Positions 5,309-17,958 of a stretch of 40,717 nucleotides of DNA are shown piece by piece. Made by a program: the position numbers and the translations under genes. Source of the DNA: a virus; the IMG/VR virus record IMGVR_UViG_3300009176_000048, positions 1 to 40,717 of that record. The stretch is one strand, 5' to 3'. How positions within the stretch are numbered: position 1 is the first letter of the stretch; every line of letters begins with the position of its first letter. Below the pieces are notes generated by a model, which saw only the letters and a list, made by a program, of their open reading frames with translations, had not been told where the DNA came from and ran no database searches.

Positions 5309-6322
5309 ATGTCCGATTCTATTTCAGATACTTACAATAAGATTCCTTATCAATTTTGCGCCATTCCATATGAATTTTTTCGAAAAGAATTCATTGAAGA
5401 TCCCCCTATGATGACTTTGATTTTCTTTATTTTTAAGCGTATTCGTTTTACTCCTCATTCAATCAGGATAAAAAGCAACGGATGGCATGAGGTATCACTT
5501 CAATGTTTTGAATTCATTTTTGGTCGGCATGCCTGCTCCCAGGAAACCGGATTAACAGAGCGACAAATACGCACTCGCCTCGAGAGACTTATTGTTCTAG
5601 GATATCTGACAAGGCAAACGACCAGCAGTTCGACCAGCAGTTCGACCAGCAGTTGTTCACAACTTTCGACCAGCAGTTTTTCAGTCTACAGATTAGCCAC
5701 AGAGGCTTTTGGTAAAAAAAACGTCCAGCAGTTTAAGGGGGTCAACGACCAGCAGTTCGACCAGCAGTTCGACCACAAACAAGATGTTCTAGAAAATCAA
5801 GATATTTCTGTTTTTAAAAAAGAAACAAACAAAGAAAAAGATGTTCATAAGTTTGACACCCCCCTACCCCCTGAAGGGGGAGTTGTTGTTCCATTGTCTT
5901 TGTTTCAAGGAGAGAAAAAAAAAGAACAAGCTTCTCATGAAGATATTCTGATTATAGAAGCTGTGCTTGATGACACTCTAGGAATAACGAATGCGAGCAC
6001 CAAAACTTTGCGTATCTGGATTGAAAAATATTCTAAAGAGAGATTGATTGATTCAATTCTACTTCTCAAAAGAAAGCCAACTAAAGTAGAAAATAAAATG
6101 GGATGGCTAAACAATTGCCTAAAAAACAATTGGGATATTGCTGATAAAAATAAAACGGCAAACAGAGAATTTTTCATGAATTTTAAGAATGAAAATGGTT
6201 TATCTTCTCTAAAAATTTACGGGACTATGGCTAAAGATAAATCTAATGACTTTGAATTTGATTTTACAAGAAACCCTGCTGATTTGCAGGATTATGCAAG
6301 GAGAAAATATGGAACGATTTGA
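5309..6322 (+). CDS. Phage replication initiator (O-like), carries intragenic iterons
   Basis: 337 residues. The N-terminal 110 residues look like a winged-helix replication-initiation domain (PYEFFRK, then SLQCFEFIFGRHACSQETGLTERQIRTRLERLIVLGYL), similar in layout to phage O/DnaD-type initiators. The centre (residues about 104-155) is low complexity because the DNA holds 12-bp iterons, and the C-terminal part (about 210-300, with TLRIWIEKYSKERLIDSILL and MGWLNNCLKNNW) is helical and may contact a helicase or loader. The ATG has only a weak ribosome site. The last 14 bases overlap the next gene. No helicase or polymerase gene is visible, so the phage probably recruits host replication proteins. 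Confidence 0.7.
   Translation: MSDSISDTYNKIPYQFCAIPYEFFRKEFIEDPPMMTLIFFIFKRIRFTPHSIRIKSNGWHEVSLQCFEFIFGRHACSQETGLTERQIRTRLERLIVLGYLTRQTTSSSTSSSTSSCSQLSTSSFSVYRLATEAFGKKNVQQFKGVNDQQFDQQFDHKQDVLENQDISVFKKETNKEKDVHKFDTPLPPEGGVVVPLSLFQGEKKKEQASHEDILIIEAVLDDTLGITNASTKTLRIWIEKYSKERLIDSILLLKRKPTKVENKMGWLNNCLKNNWDIADKNKTANREFFMNFKNENGLSSLKIYGTMAKDKSNDFEFDFTRNPADLQDYARRKYGTI
5619..5769. repeat. Iterons: seven copies of CGACCAGCAGTT, putative replication origin
   Basis: CGACCAGCAGTT occurs at 5619, 5631, 5643, 5667, 5722 (one mismatch), 5746 and 5758, with a partial eighth copy at 5770. Within each of the two clusters all start-to-start distances are 12 or 24 bases; the clusters are 55 bases apart, so they are translated in different frames (TSSS-type peptide first, DQQF-type peptide second). 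Keeping the DNA but not the peptide implies selection on DNA. An A/T-rich tract follows at about 5778-5855, a likely unwinding element, as in the lambda O gene origin. Confidence 0.75.
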
Positions 6323-8387: not shown

Positions 8388-8957
8388 ATGAAGAAGTTAA
8401 TTACGTTAGGAATGCTATTTTTTATGCCTGTTTTATCAGCTGGGCAATATGTTGGTGTGAATTTGGGTATGAACAATGGAGTTCTTACTAACCAATCGCA
8501 TAATGATAAAGTTGGATTTAAGCTCGGTGGAAATTATGGCTGGAAGTTTGATTCCAATTTCCGTGCTGAAGCTGAAATCAACTATAGAGAAAACCACCAG
8601 AAAGCTGATAAATCTTCAGAAAACGGAGCGGTAGCAAAGAAATCAACTGAAAAGTATAGCCTAACTTACATGGCTAATGTTCTATATGACGTACAAAACC
8701 TACAAACTTACGGTATCGTTCCTTATTTCGGTGTAGGTATTGGTTATGCTCAGAATACAGAGAAATCAAAAGTAAAAGGCGTTGCTGCTACAAAACAAGA
8801 CAAGGTAAGAGATAACCGCTTAGCTTATCAAGGAATTGTAGGAGTGAAGATGCCAATCAATGAAACTCTAAGCGTTGGTGCAGAATATCACTATCATGCT
8901 GGTAAAGCGCATACAAAAGATCATAGCTTAGCAATGACAGTAGTTAGAAGTTTCTAA
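8388..8957 (+). CDS. Outer-membrane beta-barrel protein
   Basis: 189 residues. Residues 1-19 are a signal peptide (lysines, hydrophobic core, SAG cleavage region). The mature protein is a run of alternating amphipathic strands (YVGVNLGMNNG, FKLGGNYGWKF, FRAEAEINYREN, YSLTYMANVLYDV, IVPYFGVGIGYAQ, LAYQGIVGVKM, LSVGAEYHYHAG, HSLAMTVVRSF), about eight in all, as in OmpA/OmpX-type barrels. It ends in Phe, the usual outer-membrane assembly signal. This implies a Gram-negative host. A barrel expressed from the phage could alter receptors, block superinfection or aid virulence of a lysogen; the role is inference. An AAGGAAAG site precedes the ATG. Confidence 0.8.
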   Translation: MKKLITLGMLFFMPVLSAGQYVGVNLGMNNGVLTNQSHNDKVGFKLGGNYGWKFDSNFRAEAEINYRENHQKADKSSENGAVAKKSTEKYSLTYMANVLYDVQNLQTYGIVPYFGVGIGYAQNTEKSKVKGVAATKQDKVRDNRLAYQGIVGVKMPINETLSVGAEYHYHAGKAHTKDHSLAMTVVRSF

Positions 8958-9927: not shown

Positions 9928-10323
9928 ATGTCTAGGCCAGAACTTCCTATTGATTGGGACAAAGTAGATTATATGCTTAAATGCGGATGTACTGGAACTG
10001 AATTAGCAGCAGTTTTTAGTATTCATCCTAATACTTTTTATAGGCGTGTAGAAGAAAAGTATAATGTCAGTTTTAGTGAATATTCACAGCAAAGGCGAAT
10101 GGTTGGTGATTATAACTTAAGGCAGAAGCAATATGAAAAGGCCATGGGACTCACAGAAACTGGTGATAACACATTGCTAATCTGGCTCGGAAAGAATCGA
10201 CTTGGCCAACGCAATGAAGACAAAATGACGATTGTTACACAAGAACAGCAAGCAACACTCGATAAGACCATGGACATGGTAGACTATCTCCAATCTAAGA
10301 AAGAGCAAGACTCTGAAGAATGA
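9928..10323 (+). CDS. terS: Terminase small subunit-like protein
   Basis: 131 residues from the ATG at 9928, chosen because AGAGA is correctly spaced; in-frame ATGs at 9907 and 9922 would add 7 or 2 residues. The N-terminal half has a helix-turn-helix of the small-terminase type (VDYMLKCGCTGTELAAVFSIHPNTFYRRVEEKY), followed by QKQYEKAMGLTETGDNTLLIWLGKNRLG, which is the conserved end of many phage small terminases. It binds the packaging start site and regulates the large subunit encoded next, which overlaps it by 4 bases. The C-terminal tail is charged and helical. Confidence 0.82.
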   Translation: MSRPELPIDWDKVDYMLKCGCTGTELAAVFSIHPNTFYRRVEEKYNVSFSEYSQQRRMVGDYNLRQKQYEKAMGLTETGDNTLLIWLGKNRLGQRNEDKMTIVTQEQQATLDKTMDMVDYLQSKKEQDSEE

Positions 10324-11633
10324 AAGAACCTCTTTCGCCAAAACAGCTCGAATTCATAATCAATTCAAAAGCTAAATGGAATTTGGCACATGGGTCGGTT
10401 AGAACTGGAAAGACTGTCGGAACAACTTTCGCATTTATGCACAAGGTTGACAGATGTCCAGATTCGAAGATCTATATTGTTGGCCACACTTTCGATACAG
10501 CCTATAGAAACGTCGTTAGATTGCTCATGGAATCAAGCGAGCTTGCAATCTTTAGGCCATTCTGTTCCTGGAGTGGTAAGAAGCTATTATACAAAGATAA
10601 AGTCATTAGTGTGCTTGGCGCGAAGGACGAGGGCGCGATCGGTAATTTTCAAGGGCTAACAATGTCCCTTTGTTATTGCGATGAGATGACACTATATCCT
10701 GAGTCTATAGTTGATATGATCGATACGCGTTTATCTGAGCCTTGGTCACAAGGATTCGCTGCCATGAACCCTTCCCATCCGAATCATAAGATTAAGAAGT
10801 GGATTGATATGGCGGAAGAGGGTAACAAAGACTACTATGCATTGCATTACACGCTTGAAGATAATCCTTACTTGGAACAATCTTACAAAGATCGCTTGAA
10901 GAACTCACTTAGTGGGATATTCTACAAGAGAAACTATCTTGGTTTATGGTGTTTAGCAGAGGGGAGTATCTTTGATTTCTTTGATCCGAAGTTTCATGTT
11001 GTGCCTAAGCCTCCGCGTGCTGCTGAATATTGGATCGCTGCTATTGACTATGGCGCAGTCAATCCATTTGCTTGCTTGCTCATTGGCGTCTCAACTGGAC
11101 GATATACGCAATCAGGGAAAATGATGTGGGTAGAGAAAGAGTATTATTGGGATCCGGTGAAGAAGGAGAGGCAACAGACCAATAGTGAGTTTGCGAACGA
11201 TGTGCAAACCTTTTTGCAAGACTATGACGTTAAACAGATTTACATAGACCCGTCAGCAGCAGCATTCAAGACAGAATTGCGTAGGCGTGGTTTGCACCCT
11301 GTGGATGCCAACAATGAAGTTCTCGATGGCATAACTATGATGACAACCGAAATGAAGCGTGGAACGCTCGTAGTTTGTTCAGAATGCACCAATACCATTC
11401 GAGAGATAGAAAGCTATGTGTGGGACAATAAAGCTGCAGAGAAAGGCTGGGATGAGCCATTAAAGAAGAATGATCACGCAATCGATGCTCTACGCTATGC
11501 AATAGCCACCCACAAGGTTAACGTATATGAGCCATACAAAGACCCTAGGCAGAATGAAAAGTGGTCTATGCAAGGAATAAACACGTTTGAAGCCAATCGA
11601 GACCCTAGGCGGGGGAATCAACGCTCTTTTTAG
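10320..11633 (+). CDS. terL: Terminase large subunit (PBSX-type)
   Basis: 437 residues. ATPase domain: Walker A GSVRTGKT at residues 25-32, Walker B SLCYCDE at about 116-122 with the catalytic Glu at 122. Nuclease domain of RNase H fold: first acidic residue in AAIDYG (about 243), second in IYIDPS (about 308), third in DHAIDALRY (about 384). All motifs are intact and the length is normal. The enzyme cuts concatemers and pumps DNA through the portal encoded downstream at 13727. The start overlaps the small-subunit stop (ATGA). Its last 29 bases are overlapped on the other strand by a small Cys-rich frame. Confidence 0.93.
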   Translation: MKEPLSPKQLEFIINSKAKWNLAHGSVRTGKTVGTTFAFMHKVDRCPDSKIYIVGHTFDTAYRNVVRLLMESSELAIFRPFCSWSGKKLLYKDKVISVLGAKDEGAIGNFQGLTMSLCYCDEMTLYPESIVDMIDTRLSEPWSQGFAAMNPSHPNHKIKKWIDMAEEGNKDYYALHYTLEDNPYLEQSYKDRLKNSLSGIFYKRNYLGLWCLAEGSIFDFFDPKFHVVPKPPRAAEYWIAAIDYGAVNPFACLLIGVSTGRYTQSGKMMWVEKEYYWDPVKKERQQTNSEFANDVQTFLQDYDVKQIYIDPSAAAFKTELRRRGLHPVDANNEVLDGITMMTTEMKRGTLVVCSECTNTIREIESYVWDNKAAEKGWDEPLKKNDHAIDALRYAIATHKVNVYEPYKDPRQNEKWSMQGINTFEANRDPRRGNQRSF

Positions 11634-11772
11634 GCCTTTCTGGTCTATCTTTGCAATAATAACATAAAGGGTCGCTGCAAGCTTTTTCCATCCATTCATT
11701 GCATTTTTTGCAATAATAGCAGTCATACCGTTCATTATAATCTAGTGGCCAGCCACAATCACACGTGCTCAT
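11605..11772 (-). CDS. Putative small zinc-ribbon protein
   Basis: 55 residues with eight Cys in paired spacing: CDC near the N-terminus, CYYCKKC in the middle and ACSDPLCYYC later, then a basic tail. The pattern suggests one or two zinc knuckles. It starts inside the last codons of the 11759-12181 gene (reading the same strand) and ends opposite the terL 3' end. Only a weak AGAGAA site is seen, so the case rests on the Cys pattern and operon position. Confidence 0.5.
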   Translation of the reverse strand: MSTCDCGWPLDYNERYDCYYCKKCNEWMEKACSDPLCYYCKDRPERPKKSVDSPA

Positions 11773-12181
11773 GGATATTTTCTCTTAACCATTCATAGAT
11801 TTTATGCTTTAAGTCTGATTTTAGCTTTGAGGTTACCAAGTCTTTTTCTCCAAAGAAAGTTAAGTGAACAAAGCGTATGGAATTCATATAAATATCCCTA
11901 TCGATGCCCTTTTGATTTATCGTTATGAAGTAGCCATGCTTGGACACTTTCAATGCTTTTATTCTACATTTCTCAACTTCACTAGAGGTGACAGGTCCTT
12001 CAAGTCTTAAGATAATTCTCTTAATCTTTTCGAGGTTGATATCGTCATCAAGAAATGATTTAATTTCTTCAGTAATATCAAGTTTTTTCTCTTTTTTACG
12101 TAGAGGACCTATGGCCTTTCCATTGATTTCGCTATCGACATTAACTTTCTTTTTCTTTGTTTTGTTTTTATCTTTTTTCAT
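11759..12181 (-). CDS. Hypothetical protein with Lys-rich N-terminus
   Basis: 140 residues: a strongly basic first 40 residues (KKDKNKTKKKKVN), then an alpha/beta domain (INLEKIKRIILRLEGPVTSSEVEKCRI... YFITINQ... FVHLTFFG) ending in a helical tail. Family unknown. It is preceded by pentamer array A (12194-12328) and lacks a clear ribosome site, so expression may depend on the unusual leader. Confidence 0.7.
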   Translation of the reverse strand: MKKDKNKTKKKKVNVDSEINGKAIGPLRKKEKKLDITEEIKSFLDDDINLEKIKRIILRLEGPVTSSEVEKCRIKALKVSKHGYFITINQKGIDRDIYMNSIRFVHLTFFGEKDLVTSKLKSDLKHKIYEWLRENIHEHV

Positions 12182-12193
12182 AGCAAAGGACTC

Positions 12194-12328
12194 TTAACTT
12201 AACGGAACGAAACCAAACAAATCATAACGTATCATAACCAAACCAAACGTAACAAAACGTAACACAACTTAACTTAACTTAAATAAACCCACCCTAACTT
12301 AACCAAACTGACAGGAACTTAACTGAAT
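12194..12328. repeat. Phase-locked NNAAC pentamer array A
   Basis: 27 consecutive pentamers. AAC occurs at 12196 and every 5 bases to 12326 without a single phase slip; 21 of 27 are exact AAC and the other six carry one or two changes (ATC twice, AAA, ACC, ACA, AAT). The two bases between are variable. It fills the whole gap between the stop of the 12747 gene and the start of the 12181 gene. In the minus-strand transcript it would be a GUUNN leader. Confidence 0.9.
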
Positions 12329-12747
12329 TAAATCTCTTTTAACTTGTCCCTAATACTGTACAGAATGCTTTGCAACTTATTATTCTCGTGTAGATGCTTC
12401 TTCATTTCGGGATAATCTAAATTTTCCATTTTCGTATTTATCATGCATTTTTGAGCGCGTCTAAGTCTTTTGAATGAGTTCACGACAATTCGGTTAACCT
12501 GAATCGATATTTCATCAGCATCGTATATTTTAAGATCGCCTGGGTTTTGATTTTCATTTGTGCACATGTAGCCTTCTTCTTCTAGGTACATTTTCATAGC
12601 TAAGAAAGGCGTAAGGAAATCCCAACCGTCATCTAACTTTGCGCGGAATAAGGTTTCAAGAACGTTTCTAGGTATTACAACGCCATAATCCAAGTAGTTG
12701 TTTTCTTGCAGCCAATTAAATACTTTTATTTTTTCTTCTAATTTCAT
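12328..12747 (-). CDS. Hypothetical protein
   Basis: 139 residues from the ATG at 12747 (MKLEEKIKVFNWL...), selected because AAGGAGA lies 4-5 bases upstream; a longer reading would run into array B. Helical, with a WDFLTPFLAMKMYLEEEGYMC segment and a basic helix (VNSFKRLRRAQKCM) that might bind nucleic acid. Its stop lies at the edge of array A and its start at the edge of array B. No family recognised. Confidence 0.7.
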   Translation of the reverse strand: MKLEEKIKVFNWLQENNYLDYGVVIPRNVLETLFRAKLDDGWDFLTPFLAMKMYLEEEGYMCTNENQNPGDLKIYDADEISIQVNRIVVNSFKRLRRAQKCMINTKMENLDYPEMKKHLHENNKLQSILYSIRDKLKEI

Positions 12748-12758
12748 ATCTCTCCTTA

Positions 12759-12873
12759 AAAACTTATCGAAACGGAACACAACGCAACACAACTCATCTT
12801 AACAAAACCCAACATAACACAACTCAGCGGAACGAAATGCAACTAAACCTATCGCACCGGAACGTATCAAAAC
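12759..12873. repeat. Phase-locked NNAAC pentamer array B
   Basis: 23 consecutive pentamers with AAC or a near variant at 12761 and every 5 bases to 12871; 16 are exact, the rest mostly ATC (12766, 12796, 12851, 12866) plus AGC, AAT and ACC. It fills the gap between the stop of the 13494 gene and the ribosome site of the 12747 gene. The phase (position modulo 5) is the same as in array A. Confidence 0.88.
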
Positions 12874-13494
12874 TTAAATTTCTTTCATTTCTTCAAGTGT
12901 AAATCTTCCACATATTCCAGTGGCTAACTGTGGTCTAAGTTCACCTATGCCGTACTCAAAGCCAGCTCTTTCGATGATTCTTTTCAGTTCTTCTTCGCTT
13001 AATATTTCTGTATTCAACATGATGTTGAACTTGACTTCCCATGTTGGGAATATTGGTCTAGTTCTCATTGTTTTACTTCTCTGGACGTTGACGGCTTCAG
13101 TGAATACGTAAGTTTGTTCACCTTTCTTATTTGTGACAGCCCAAAGCTTTTCAGGTGTCATTTTCTGATATCCAATCAAAGGAGTGCCTGGAATGCAGTC
13201 AACGATTACCGCTTTCATTTGCAGGCCTTTCTTTTCTTTACGTGCACTTGCTCGTAAGCATCCGATAATCATTTTTGAGCTTAGGTATACGCCTATGTCT
13301 TCATCATAGTACAAGCTTGCTGTCCATTCTATTTTGGCCATAGCCATATAATGTTCATCTTGCTTGGTTTTGATTGAAGTAAGTTCCTTCATACGCTTCT
13401 TGAGCGGGTGTAGGGGATTGGCTAATGTATCACAATTCATAACGAATGGTGAAAGTGACTTCAAATGGATACTGTAATTTTTTAATTCCTGCAT
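12874..13494 (-). CDS. Phage protein with RAMP-like C-terminal motif
   Basis: 206 residues; GAGGAAAT precedes the ATG at 13494. The N-terminal half contains a conserved-looking LANPLHPLKKRMKELTSIKTKQDEHYMAMAKIEW block and a YYDEDIGVYLSSKMIIGCLRASARKEKKG block, the C-terminal part ends YGIGELRPQ...GICGRF. The Gly-rich GxGxxRPxxxxGxxGRF resembles the G-loop of RAMP/Cas5-7-type RNA-binding folds, and I recall similar unannotated proteins in other phages. Function unproven. It is the first gene of a three-gene minus-strand set and is flanked on both sides by pentamer arrays (B and C). Confidence 0.7.
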   Translation of the reverse strand: MQELKNYSIHLKSLSPFVMNCDTLANPLHPLKKRMKELTSIKTKQDEHYMAMAKIEWTASLYYDEDIGVYLSSKMIIGCLRASARKEKKGLQMKAVIVDCIPGTPLIGYQKMTPEKLWAVTNKKGEQTYVFTEAVNVQRSKTMRTRPIFPTWEVKFNIMLNTEILSEEELKRIIERAGFEYGIGELRPQLATGICGRFTLEEMKEI

Positions 13495-13509
13495 ATTTCC
13501 TCATAAAAT

Positions 13510-13609
13510 TAAACTTAACTTAACTAACCACAACTTAACAGGACGCAGCTGAACGAAACGTACCGGAAAATAACGGAACGAAACTCATCTCAACGCAACA
13601 TATCTGAAA
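13510..13609. repeat. Phase-locked NNAAC pentamer array C
   Basis: 20 consecutive pentamers, AAC or variant at 13512 and every 5 bases to 13607; 12 exact, variants ACC, GAC, AGC, ACC, AAA, ATC, ATC, AAA. It lies immediately upstream of the 13494 gene. The phase differs from arrays A and B by one base. Confidence 0.82.
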
Positions 13610-13726: not shown

Positions 13727-15847
13727 ATGACCTTCTTTTTTCCGCCTTGGAATAATGCGCTTGAGCCTTCACAAGGCAATGTGCGTCAATGGTTAGATAA
13801 TCTTTATAGCAAATTTCAGCCCATCGAGCAATCACGCTGGAATCAGTCGAACATCGACACGATGTTTTACGCTGGCGCTCAAGACTATGTGAACCGATAT
13901 TTTAATTTCACTCCTAGGGGCGGCTCTCAGTTCTATTTCAACGTATCTCAACAGCCAATTAACATGGTGACGGGATATGAGAGACAGCATAGAAAGAACT
14001 TTTCCTACGTTCCGACTGAGGGCGCCGATGCTAAAACTACCGACCAATACACTAAATTAATAACCACCGTTGCGAATAAAGGCGATATACACGAGCAAAA
14101 GAGCAAAGCTAAGGAATTAGCAGCGGTTGCTGGTATGTGTCTCATGCAACCTTACCTTGATTATACTAGTGAAGATCAGGCTCAAGGGGAATTGAAGGTT
14201 AAAATATGGGAATACAACTCATTCTTAGTCGACCCTTATTTTAGATCACCCGACATGTCCGATGCTCAATTTGTTTGGTGTCAAGAGTATATATCCAAAC
14301 GAGAAGCTGAAGACAGATTCCCCGACAAAGTTAGTCAAATCCAACCCATGGCGGGCACGCCGCAAAGATATGGTAGCTTTTATTTTTTGCCAGAAAACTA
14401 CAACATGGCTAGAAACGACCTCATGGTCTTATCTTATGTGTGGTATAAATGGAAAGGTAAGAAGAAACGACTATATAGCCGCAAGCGGAACCAGTTTTTT
14501 GATTTCGCTCAAGGAATGGAAAACTTAGAGCAAGTGCTTTATAACATACCCGATCTAGAGCTTGTAACTGTTGATGTCCCTATCTGGAAATTAGCTGTTG
14601 TTTTAAACGATCAGCTCATGTTTCAAGGGGAGAATCCACTAGGTTTTAATGGTTGTCCATTTATTCCATACTTTTGGAACTATGAGCCTCATATCAATCA
14701 TTATGACCTACGCGTAAGATCCCTCATGCGCACCATGCGTGATAGCCAATTCCTATTTAACCATAAGGTAAGAACTAACAACGATATTACTGAAGCTACA
14801 ATCAATTCTGGATGGAAGAGAAAGATTGGAGCGGTCGCCAACGAGGATAACCTAAAGAAAACAGGCCAAGGCTGGGATGTCATTGTCAATGATGGCTATG
14901 AAATGACTGATGTTGAGAAGATTATCCCTTCCGGCGTTCCAGAAAGCGATCTTGCATTAGCTGAGCAATTATCTAGCCTAATCTTTAAAACAAGTGGCAT
15001 AGACCTAGAAAACTGGTCTGGCCAGCAAGACAAACAAACATCTAGCCTTACAGCTCTCATTAAGCAAGCTGCAAACTTGATGGTTCTACAAAAGTACTTC
15101 GATCAATGGGACTATTCAGACAAGCTTTTAGGCGATAGATTGCTACAAATTGCCCTCAATAACTGGAATGCTCCTAAGGTTGAACTATACATAGGCGAAG
15201 AACCTACTCCTTTCTTCCATAGCAAGATCTTTAGTAAATATCAAGTGGTTGTCGAAGAAGCTGATCTAACACCAACTCAGCAGAATTTACAAGCTCAACA
15301 AATGCTTGATATTAATCAGATGTTTGGTCGTGAAGTGTTCCCAGCTTCCATGATTATTCCTAAGCTAAATATCACTGGGAAAGGCGAGATCATTCCGTTC
15401 CTACAACAACAAGAGCAGCAGCAAGCAGCGGTTCAAGCGGAAGCGACAAATCTTCAGCATACCGTCGAAGAAATGAAGCTCAAGGAATTGATGGCTAAGA
15501 TTCATAATCAGCTTTCACAAGCTCGTGAGAGAGATTCTAGAAGCGAGTCCAATGTGGGCTTATTCGAAGAAAGAATGAGCATGATCAGTAAGAACCATGC
15601 TTTAGCTTCTAAAGAGAAAATGGCGGCATTGGCGCAACTATTAGAGACTATTCAGAAATTCGGAGAAGTAGAGACATTCCTTCAATCCAACAATCTCGAG
15701 TCGATTAAGATGGATGAAGAAGATCAAGAGAAAGAACAGAGACAAGCAGTTGAAAGGCAAGAAGCTTCTAAGCGATTTATTGAGCAGATTATGGGAAGCC
15801 AGCCAAGTCAACAAAACTCTGGCCAAAATCAGATGAGCATGGTATAA
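13727..15847 (+). CDS. Portal protein (P22-like)
   Basis: 706 residues, the length expected of P22-type portals. The N-terminal region (RWLDNLYSKFQPIEQSRWNQSNIDTMFYAG) and the block FYFNVSQQPINMVTGYERQHRKNFSYVP are typical of this family, followed by the KELAAVAGMCLMQPYLDYT region. The C-terminal 200 residues are Gln-rich and helical (LQQQEQQQAAVQAEATNL...), corresponding to the barrel domain that projects into the head. The protein forms the dodecameric DNA channel at one vertex and docks the terminase encoded at 10320. It begins the head module, after an inserted minus-strand segment separating it from terL. Confidence 0.9.
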   Translation: MTFFFPPWNNALEPSQGNVRQWLDNLYSKFQPIEQSRWNQSNIDTMFYAGAQDYVNRYFNFTPRGGSQFYFNVSQQPINMVTGYERQHRKNFSYVPTEGADAKTTDQYTKLITTVANKGDIHEQKSKAKELAAVAGMCLMQPYLDYTSEDQAQGELKVKIWEYNSFLVDPYFRSPDMSDAQFVWCQEYISKREAEDRFPDKVSQIQPMAGTPQRYGSFYFLPENYNMARNDLMVLSYVWYKWKGKKKRLYSRKRNQFFDFAQGMENLEQVLYNIPDLELVTVDVPIWKLAVVLNDQLMFQGENPLGFNGCPFIPYFWNYEPHINHYDLRVRSLMRTMRDSQFLFNHKVRTNNDITEATINSGWKRKIGAVANEDNLKKTGQGWDVIVNDGYEMTDVEKIIPSGVPESDLALAEQLSSLIFKTSGIDLENWSGQQDKQTSSLTALIKQAANLMVLQKYFDQWDYSDKLLGDRLLQIALNNWNAPKVELYIGEEPTPFFHSKIFSKYQVVVEEADLTPTQQNLQAQQMLDINQMFGREVFPASMIIPKLNITGKGEIIPFLQQQEQQQAAVQAEATNLQHTVEEMKLKELMAKIHNQLSQARERDSRSESNVGLFEERMSMISKNHALASKEKMAALAQLLETIQKFGEVETFLQSNNLESIKMDEEDQEKEQRQAVERQEASKRFIEQIMGSQPSQQNSGQNQMSMV

Positions 15848-17149: not shown

Positions 17150-17262
17150 GTAACCTCCTACTGCTAAATACATTATATAATTTATTTCAAGAAAAAAAGC
17201 GATAGACAAATGGAAATATTAAGAATAGATTTCAGGAGACCCTAATCCATAGGAGGGTGTGT

Positions 17263-17958
17263 ATGTGTAAAGATAATAATAGTGAATATCATAGGGATTG
17301 CCCTTGCTGCTGTGAGCAAGGACCTCAAGGTGTCCCAGGTCTACAAGGGCCTCAAGGTGTTCAAGGTGTGCCTGGTGTTCAAGGGATTCCTGGTCAAACG
17401 GGTGCTCAAGGCCCACAAGGTACTCAAGGTCCTAAAGGCGATCCAGGAAAAGACTGCGATTGTTCTGAAGGCGTTCTTCCATATGCTAACGTATATGCAT
17501 CTATTGCTCAGGTAGTACAGGCATTCAACGTGCCCGCACTATCCGACCAAGTTCTCTTTGATAAGCAAAATGCTGTGTCAGCAGGCGATTTTGACTTAAC
17601 AATGATGAACGCAAATGGAGATATTAAGTTCCTCAAGCATGGTATCTACCATGTTCAATGGCAGCTGCAAGCTCGTATTTTGCCTCCAGTACCAAGCCCA
17701 GTACCATCCTGGTCATTTGGTTTCTGGTTGAACGGTATCTTGGTTCCAGGTTCTATTTATTCTGGATTTACCCAAGCACCAGGCGATGATGCATGTCACT
17801 CTACAGGTGATATTATCATCGAAGTTCAAGCAAATGATGTACTAAGATTAAGAAATACCAGCGTTTCTGCTGTAAATCTTAATCCAAGTGTGACAGGTAG
17901 CGTATTTCCTATCACGATCGCTTCTGTGAATATTGAGGGTTTAAAGTCTCTCCCATAA
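17263..17958 (+). CDS. Collagen-like virion protein with C-terminal jelly-roll-like domain
   Basis: 231 residues from the ATG at 17263, six bases after AGGAGG. Residues 20-64 are 15 uninterrupted Gly-X-Y triplets ([10 protein letters not shown]...), bracketed by Cys at 13, 15, 16, 17 and at 65, 67, which could cross-link the three chains. Residues about 75-231 are a beta-rich domain ([53 protein letters not shown]) resembling C1q/BclA-type trimeric tips. Such proteins form thin trimeric head or tail fibres in phages. Its position between portal and scaffold favours a capsid fibre. Strand neighbours on both sides are opposite, suggesting a late insertion. Confidence 0.8.

Follow-up and report, generated by a model that had tools for sequence, protein, structure and literature searches.

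What is encoded by three tracts in which a trinucleotide recurs every five bases between the genes of a viral operon? This question is raised by IMG/VR record IMGVR_UViG_3300009176_000048, a virus contig of 40,717 nt that was analyzed over its whole length (hereafter, the window). The tracts belong to a minus-strand operon of three genes, located between the genes for the terminase large subunit (10320–11633, plus strand) and a P22-like portal protein (13727–15847, plus strand). A sequence-only reading of this DNA knew of no described phage element of this form, but this became outdated with the first report, in 2026, of VIPR, a phage weapon related to CRISPR (bioRxiv; PMC13142463). VIPR comprises a phage-borne RAMP protein (Vipr), an accessory protein (Vap) and RNAs (vrRNAs) in which GGY alternates with two variable bases (NN), and the NN pairs specify a double-stranded DNA target, one base being skipped (PMC13142463). 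In the model phage, SUSP1, the vrRNAs have been sequenced and tested (PMC13142463). Since SUSP1 carries a homologue of the first protein of the operon and the second gene is a relative of Vap1, the operon is very probably a phage VIPR system, and its arrays guide-RNA genes with a GUU core, lying in the gaps of their own operon.

The operon and its period-5 arrays

In the order in which they are read on the minus strand, the arrays and genes are:

About 13505–13609, minus strand: array 1, GTTNN (GUUNN in RNA), about 21 units (12 of them exact), forming the vipr leader
12874–13494, minus strand: vipr, 206 aa, RAMP fold, phrog_4652 (E 1e-37)
About 12749–12878, minus strand: array 2, GTTNN, about 24 units (16 of them exact), extending between the vipr stop codon and the Shine-Dalgarno sequence of vap
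12328–12747, minus strand: vap (relative of Vap1/phrog_5926), 139 aa
About 12189–12330, minus strand: array 3, GTTNN, about 27 core units, 21 exact
11759–12181, minus strand: third operon gene, 140 aa, matching no known family

GTT occurred 12, 16 and 21 times in a single phase in arrays 1, 2 and 3, respectively, with any other phase containing at most one. These are the counts of exact units already given by the sequence-only reading, and they far exceed the maxima of 7, 8 and 9 obtained with 2000 dinucleotide shuffles of each gap. The lag-5 identity of the gaps was 0.55, 0.55 and 0.63 (shuffles: means of 0.30–0.33; maxima of 0.46, 0.44 and 0.47), so the periodicity claimed earlier was borne out, and the spacers of relatives were also periodic rather than unrelated. 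Stretches of 10 units with at least six in-phase GTT were found in the 40.7-kb record at the three array sites only, all on the minus strand, and there were four runs of six consecutive exact units, with none expected. No phase slip was observed within any of the arrays, and the variants of the core were chiefly GAT, GGT, GCT and TTT. The arrays had been said to fill every gap of the operon; this is true of 12748–12873 and 12182–12327, which are wholly occupied, but array 1 ends about 115 bp before the start of the portal gene (13727). The sequence GTTAA GTTAA is present twice in array 3, internally and at the end, and this array perhaps consists of two head-to-tail guides. The proposal that the array leaders are non-coding and not self-complementary holds; the window arrays folded no better than shuffled sequences. 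An Rfam search gave no matches.

The product of 12874–13494 is a Vipr protein. It is homologous to the SUSP1/SUSP2 protein, and the members of phrog_4652 include the Vipr of phage SUSP1; a Pfam search with this product found no family match. Its AlphaFold2 model (41 sequences in the alignment) had a predicted local distance difference test (pLDDT) score of 93.7 and corresponds to a compact RAMP protein with an RRM core and a G-loop. All of the 50 best matches listed by Foldseek in the PDB were CRISPR RAMP proteins or complexes (Csm3, type VII Cas7, Cmr and Cas7-11). Relatives with about 30% identity were found in Felix O1-like phages (including SUSP1 and SUSP2), in phages of Pseudomonas, Gordonia, Mycobacterium and Vibrio, and on a few plasmid records from Azospirillum and Bradyrhizobium. 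The adjoining gene encodes a Vap: its product matched the Vap1-type alignment (hhalign, probability 91, E 1.1e-6) and the vap product of a related locus, L066 (phmmer, E 5e-4), with the same synteny. The third protein has a copy with 41% identity at the same place in locus L002, the only locus sharing it, and its AlphaFold2 model was uninformative (pLDDT 40). None of the three operon proteins had a match in PADLOC.

Association of the arrays with Vipr genes

We fetched 93 loci via the Vipr protein alone and, with the addition of GTT-selected loci, obtained a set of 107, many of them near-copies (70 distinct proteins). Arrays were scored with a measure rewarding three constant and two variable columns, with 138 measurements on random viral contigs as controls. 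The control maximum was exceeded in 91 of the 93 protein-selected loci and in 105 of the 107 loci overall, the two misses (L005 and L049) lying just under it. This score is symmetric for sense and antisense by construction, so that orientation is visible only from the letters of the core. In all 107 loci, as in the window, the core (GGY, GGA, AGY, GCA or GTT) lay on the sense strand of the Vipr gene, and its complement was never found there. A reverse search with (GTTNN)7 alone yielded, among the matches listed, 31 arrays with variable NN, and for 23 of them the stretch contained a Vipr-like open reading frame (ORF). Five stretches (L171, L223, L236, L287 and L260) had GTTNN arrays with variable NN and no recognized Vipr ORF; these could be loci that are truncated, or systems that are more distantly related. 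In a GTTNN scan of genome contigs, none of the genome stretches had a Vipr neighbour.

These associations bear on the roles first suggested for the arrays. A track for a protein with nucleic-acid contacts at 5-nt intervals agrees with the RAMP-fold neighbour and the strand-lock to its gene over 107 loci. The 5-bp phasing and the intergenic position would also suit an element acting as DNA, be it a half-turn-phased binding or curvature tract or an origin or partition site. Such an element is very improbable, because the orientation is locked to vipr in the 107 loci, the core differs from one Vipr clade to another, and the cassette occurs in many genome contexts. The sequence-only interpretation is thus supported in part, for its protein-contact track, and neither for its DNA-level options nor for its statement of novelty. 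It also overlooked the probable role of the variable NN as the information content of the arrays, that is, the guide.

In a tree of 84 Vipr proteins, core type was restricted to clades, the number of changes being 11, compared with 29.2 after shuffling. A single GTT clade (support 100/100) was formed by the window together with L006, L002 and L169, and the GTT core was also found in other, distant lineages, with supported branches forcing only two changes. The arrays of the other GTT clades are runs of roughly 9–17 units with separators. Array 3 of L002 (L002:2977–3141) contains a block of several units that is tandemly duplicated, which suggests that guides can grow through unit copying. Although such copying does happen, neutral microsatellite slippage as the origin of the arrays is scarcely credible, as it was judged earlier, since the NN vary while the core and the phase are kept, and the arrays are bound to one gene family across phages. 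The GTT core is accompanied by T145 (RTR in place of RYR) in 12 of 17 rows, against 4 of the 67 others, with only two independent contrasts on supported branches; a role for T145 as a core-specificity residue is a lead only.

Decoding of the guides

We compared 268 arrays with 2.7 Mb of unselected DNA. Two AGY guides, L079:2128 and L082:2000, each from the first array behind vipr, matched sister vipr genes (those of L080, L076, L081, L083 and L084) at 23 of 24 bases over 12 units under a one-base skip. The match keeps the reading frame, the base skipped being the wobble base, and the L079 and L082 vipr genes themselves match at only 17 of 26 bases at this site. The local score was 21.4, with a best score of 17.4 for shuffled guides under the one-base skip. 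The alignment supports the one-base-skip rule in AGY relatives and, to our knowledge, extends it to a core other than GGY. A GGY guide, L050:5061, matched L005:1203 at 18 of 18 bases, in an open frame of a phage Medea1 region that carries the annotation tail assembly protein L; this match appears modest, because its score was 18.0, against the shuffled best of 17.4. An L037-to-L370 match with a skip of two (22 of 24) was set aside as A-rich.

The TRAP protein binds (G/U)AGNN RNA, in which trinucleotides are spaced 5 nt apart in an mRNA leader, a layout that the window arrays share. The arrays could likewise be leader RNAs bound by a RAMP-fold protein purely for the regulation of its own operon, with the NN carrying no information: all three end at the Shine-Dalgarno sequence of the following gene, no separate promoter or terminator was seen for them in the window and no targets of their NN were found. 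We consider this unlikely, as relatives frequently have their arrays at a considerable distance downstream of the genes, or arranged in tandem with separators, decoding of the NN in the AGY relatives leads to rival vipr genes, and the SUSP1 arrays give rise to separate RNAs of about 100 nt with tested guide function (PMC13142463). Furthermore, the window Vipr differs from TRAP in having RAMPs as its best structural matches, and its arrays in having many more units and relatives with guide function.

Assignment to VIPR is nevertheless faced with several contrary observations. One-base-skip targets of the window arrays were found neither in their own genome nor in the fetched loci or 2.7 Mb of unselected loci, and exact IMG/VR matches to four 8-unit window patterns extended at chance level only. 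The SUSP1 control pattern also gave chance matches only, so the target scan is insensitive and the missing target is weak counter-evidence. No targeting of the window's own vipr gene was found. The core is GUU, with a few GGT units, instead of the published GGY; the main text of the VIPR report gives GGY or "a related consensus" and does not name GUU (PMC13142463), which may already be listed in its supplement. The arrays have at least 20 uninterrupted units, as opposed to 9–16 repeats in vrRNAs (PMC13142463), and no visible 3' pseudoknot tail. As this tail is stated for the SUSP1 clade only (PMC13142463), its absence excludes the SUSP1 subtype and not VIPR as such.

Because no target of the window's own guides was found, their function is one that we only infer. 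By analogy with VIPR and Cas7, the arrays would be transcribed and Vipr subunits would align along the GUUNN RNAs, each gripping the constant GUU, with the NN pair left exposed. The joined NN pairs, with one ignored base between them, would find matching double-stranded DNA of a competing phage, satellite or prophage, the transcription of which would be blocked with the assistance of Vap (PMC13142463).

Relationship to known systems and genome setting

The window shares with the VIPR of SUSP1 (type II) homologous RAMP-fold Vipr and Vap proteins, sense-strand period-5 arrays with a three-base core and variable NN, and a phage-borne cassette. It differs, in addition to the points above, in that the arrays abut ribosome-binding sites, a third gene is present and the cassette lies between the terminase and portal genes. 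The system may, more tentatively, represent a distinct subtype, in which long tail-less GUU guides in its own mRNA leaders would couple guide production to the translation of Vipr, Vap and the new third protein, and in which the core would have changed several times (GGY, AGY, GCA and GTT) together with Vipr, so that guide systems might not read one another. With the Cas7/Csm3 backbone of Class 1 CRISPR-Cas, the window Vipr shares the fold and, presumably, a helical assembly on guide RNA with periodic contacts. The period is 5 rather than 6, and the variable bases recur every 5 nt instead of forming a contiguous spacer. The cassette contains no repeat-spacer CRISPR array, no other cas gene was seen, and a tandem-repeat search of the window found no long-repeat array, interspersed repeats not having been searched separately.

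VIPR, which uses a noncontiguous guide code, has been proposed as an ancestor of the CRISPR RAMPs. A GUU branch occurring in nature would identify the 3+2 period as the fixed part of this code and the core letters as the part that can drift; it offers a direct route to testing how Vipr reads the core, and it suggests that guide systems may be silent to one another. Because AGY guides match rival vipr genes in frame, the published rule gains support for a further core, and conflict of VIPR against VIPR is indicated.

Elsewhere in the window, 8388–8957 (plus strand) encodes an outer-membrane beta-barrel protein (Pfam OMP_b-brl, E 3e-18), possibly a surface-changing gene. The gene at 17257–17958 (plus strand), among the structural genes, encodes collagen-like repeats with a weak match to the BclA C-terminus. 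Two perfect 12-bp tandem repeats with a shared unit (CGACCAGCAGTT) lie about 90 bp apart in one ORF (5619–5654 and 5746–5775).
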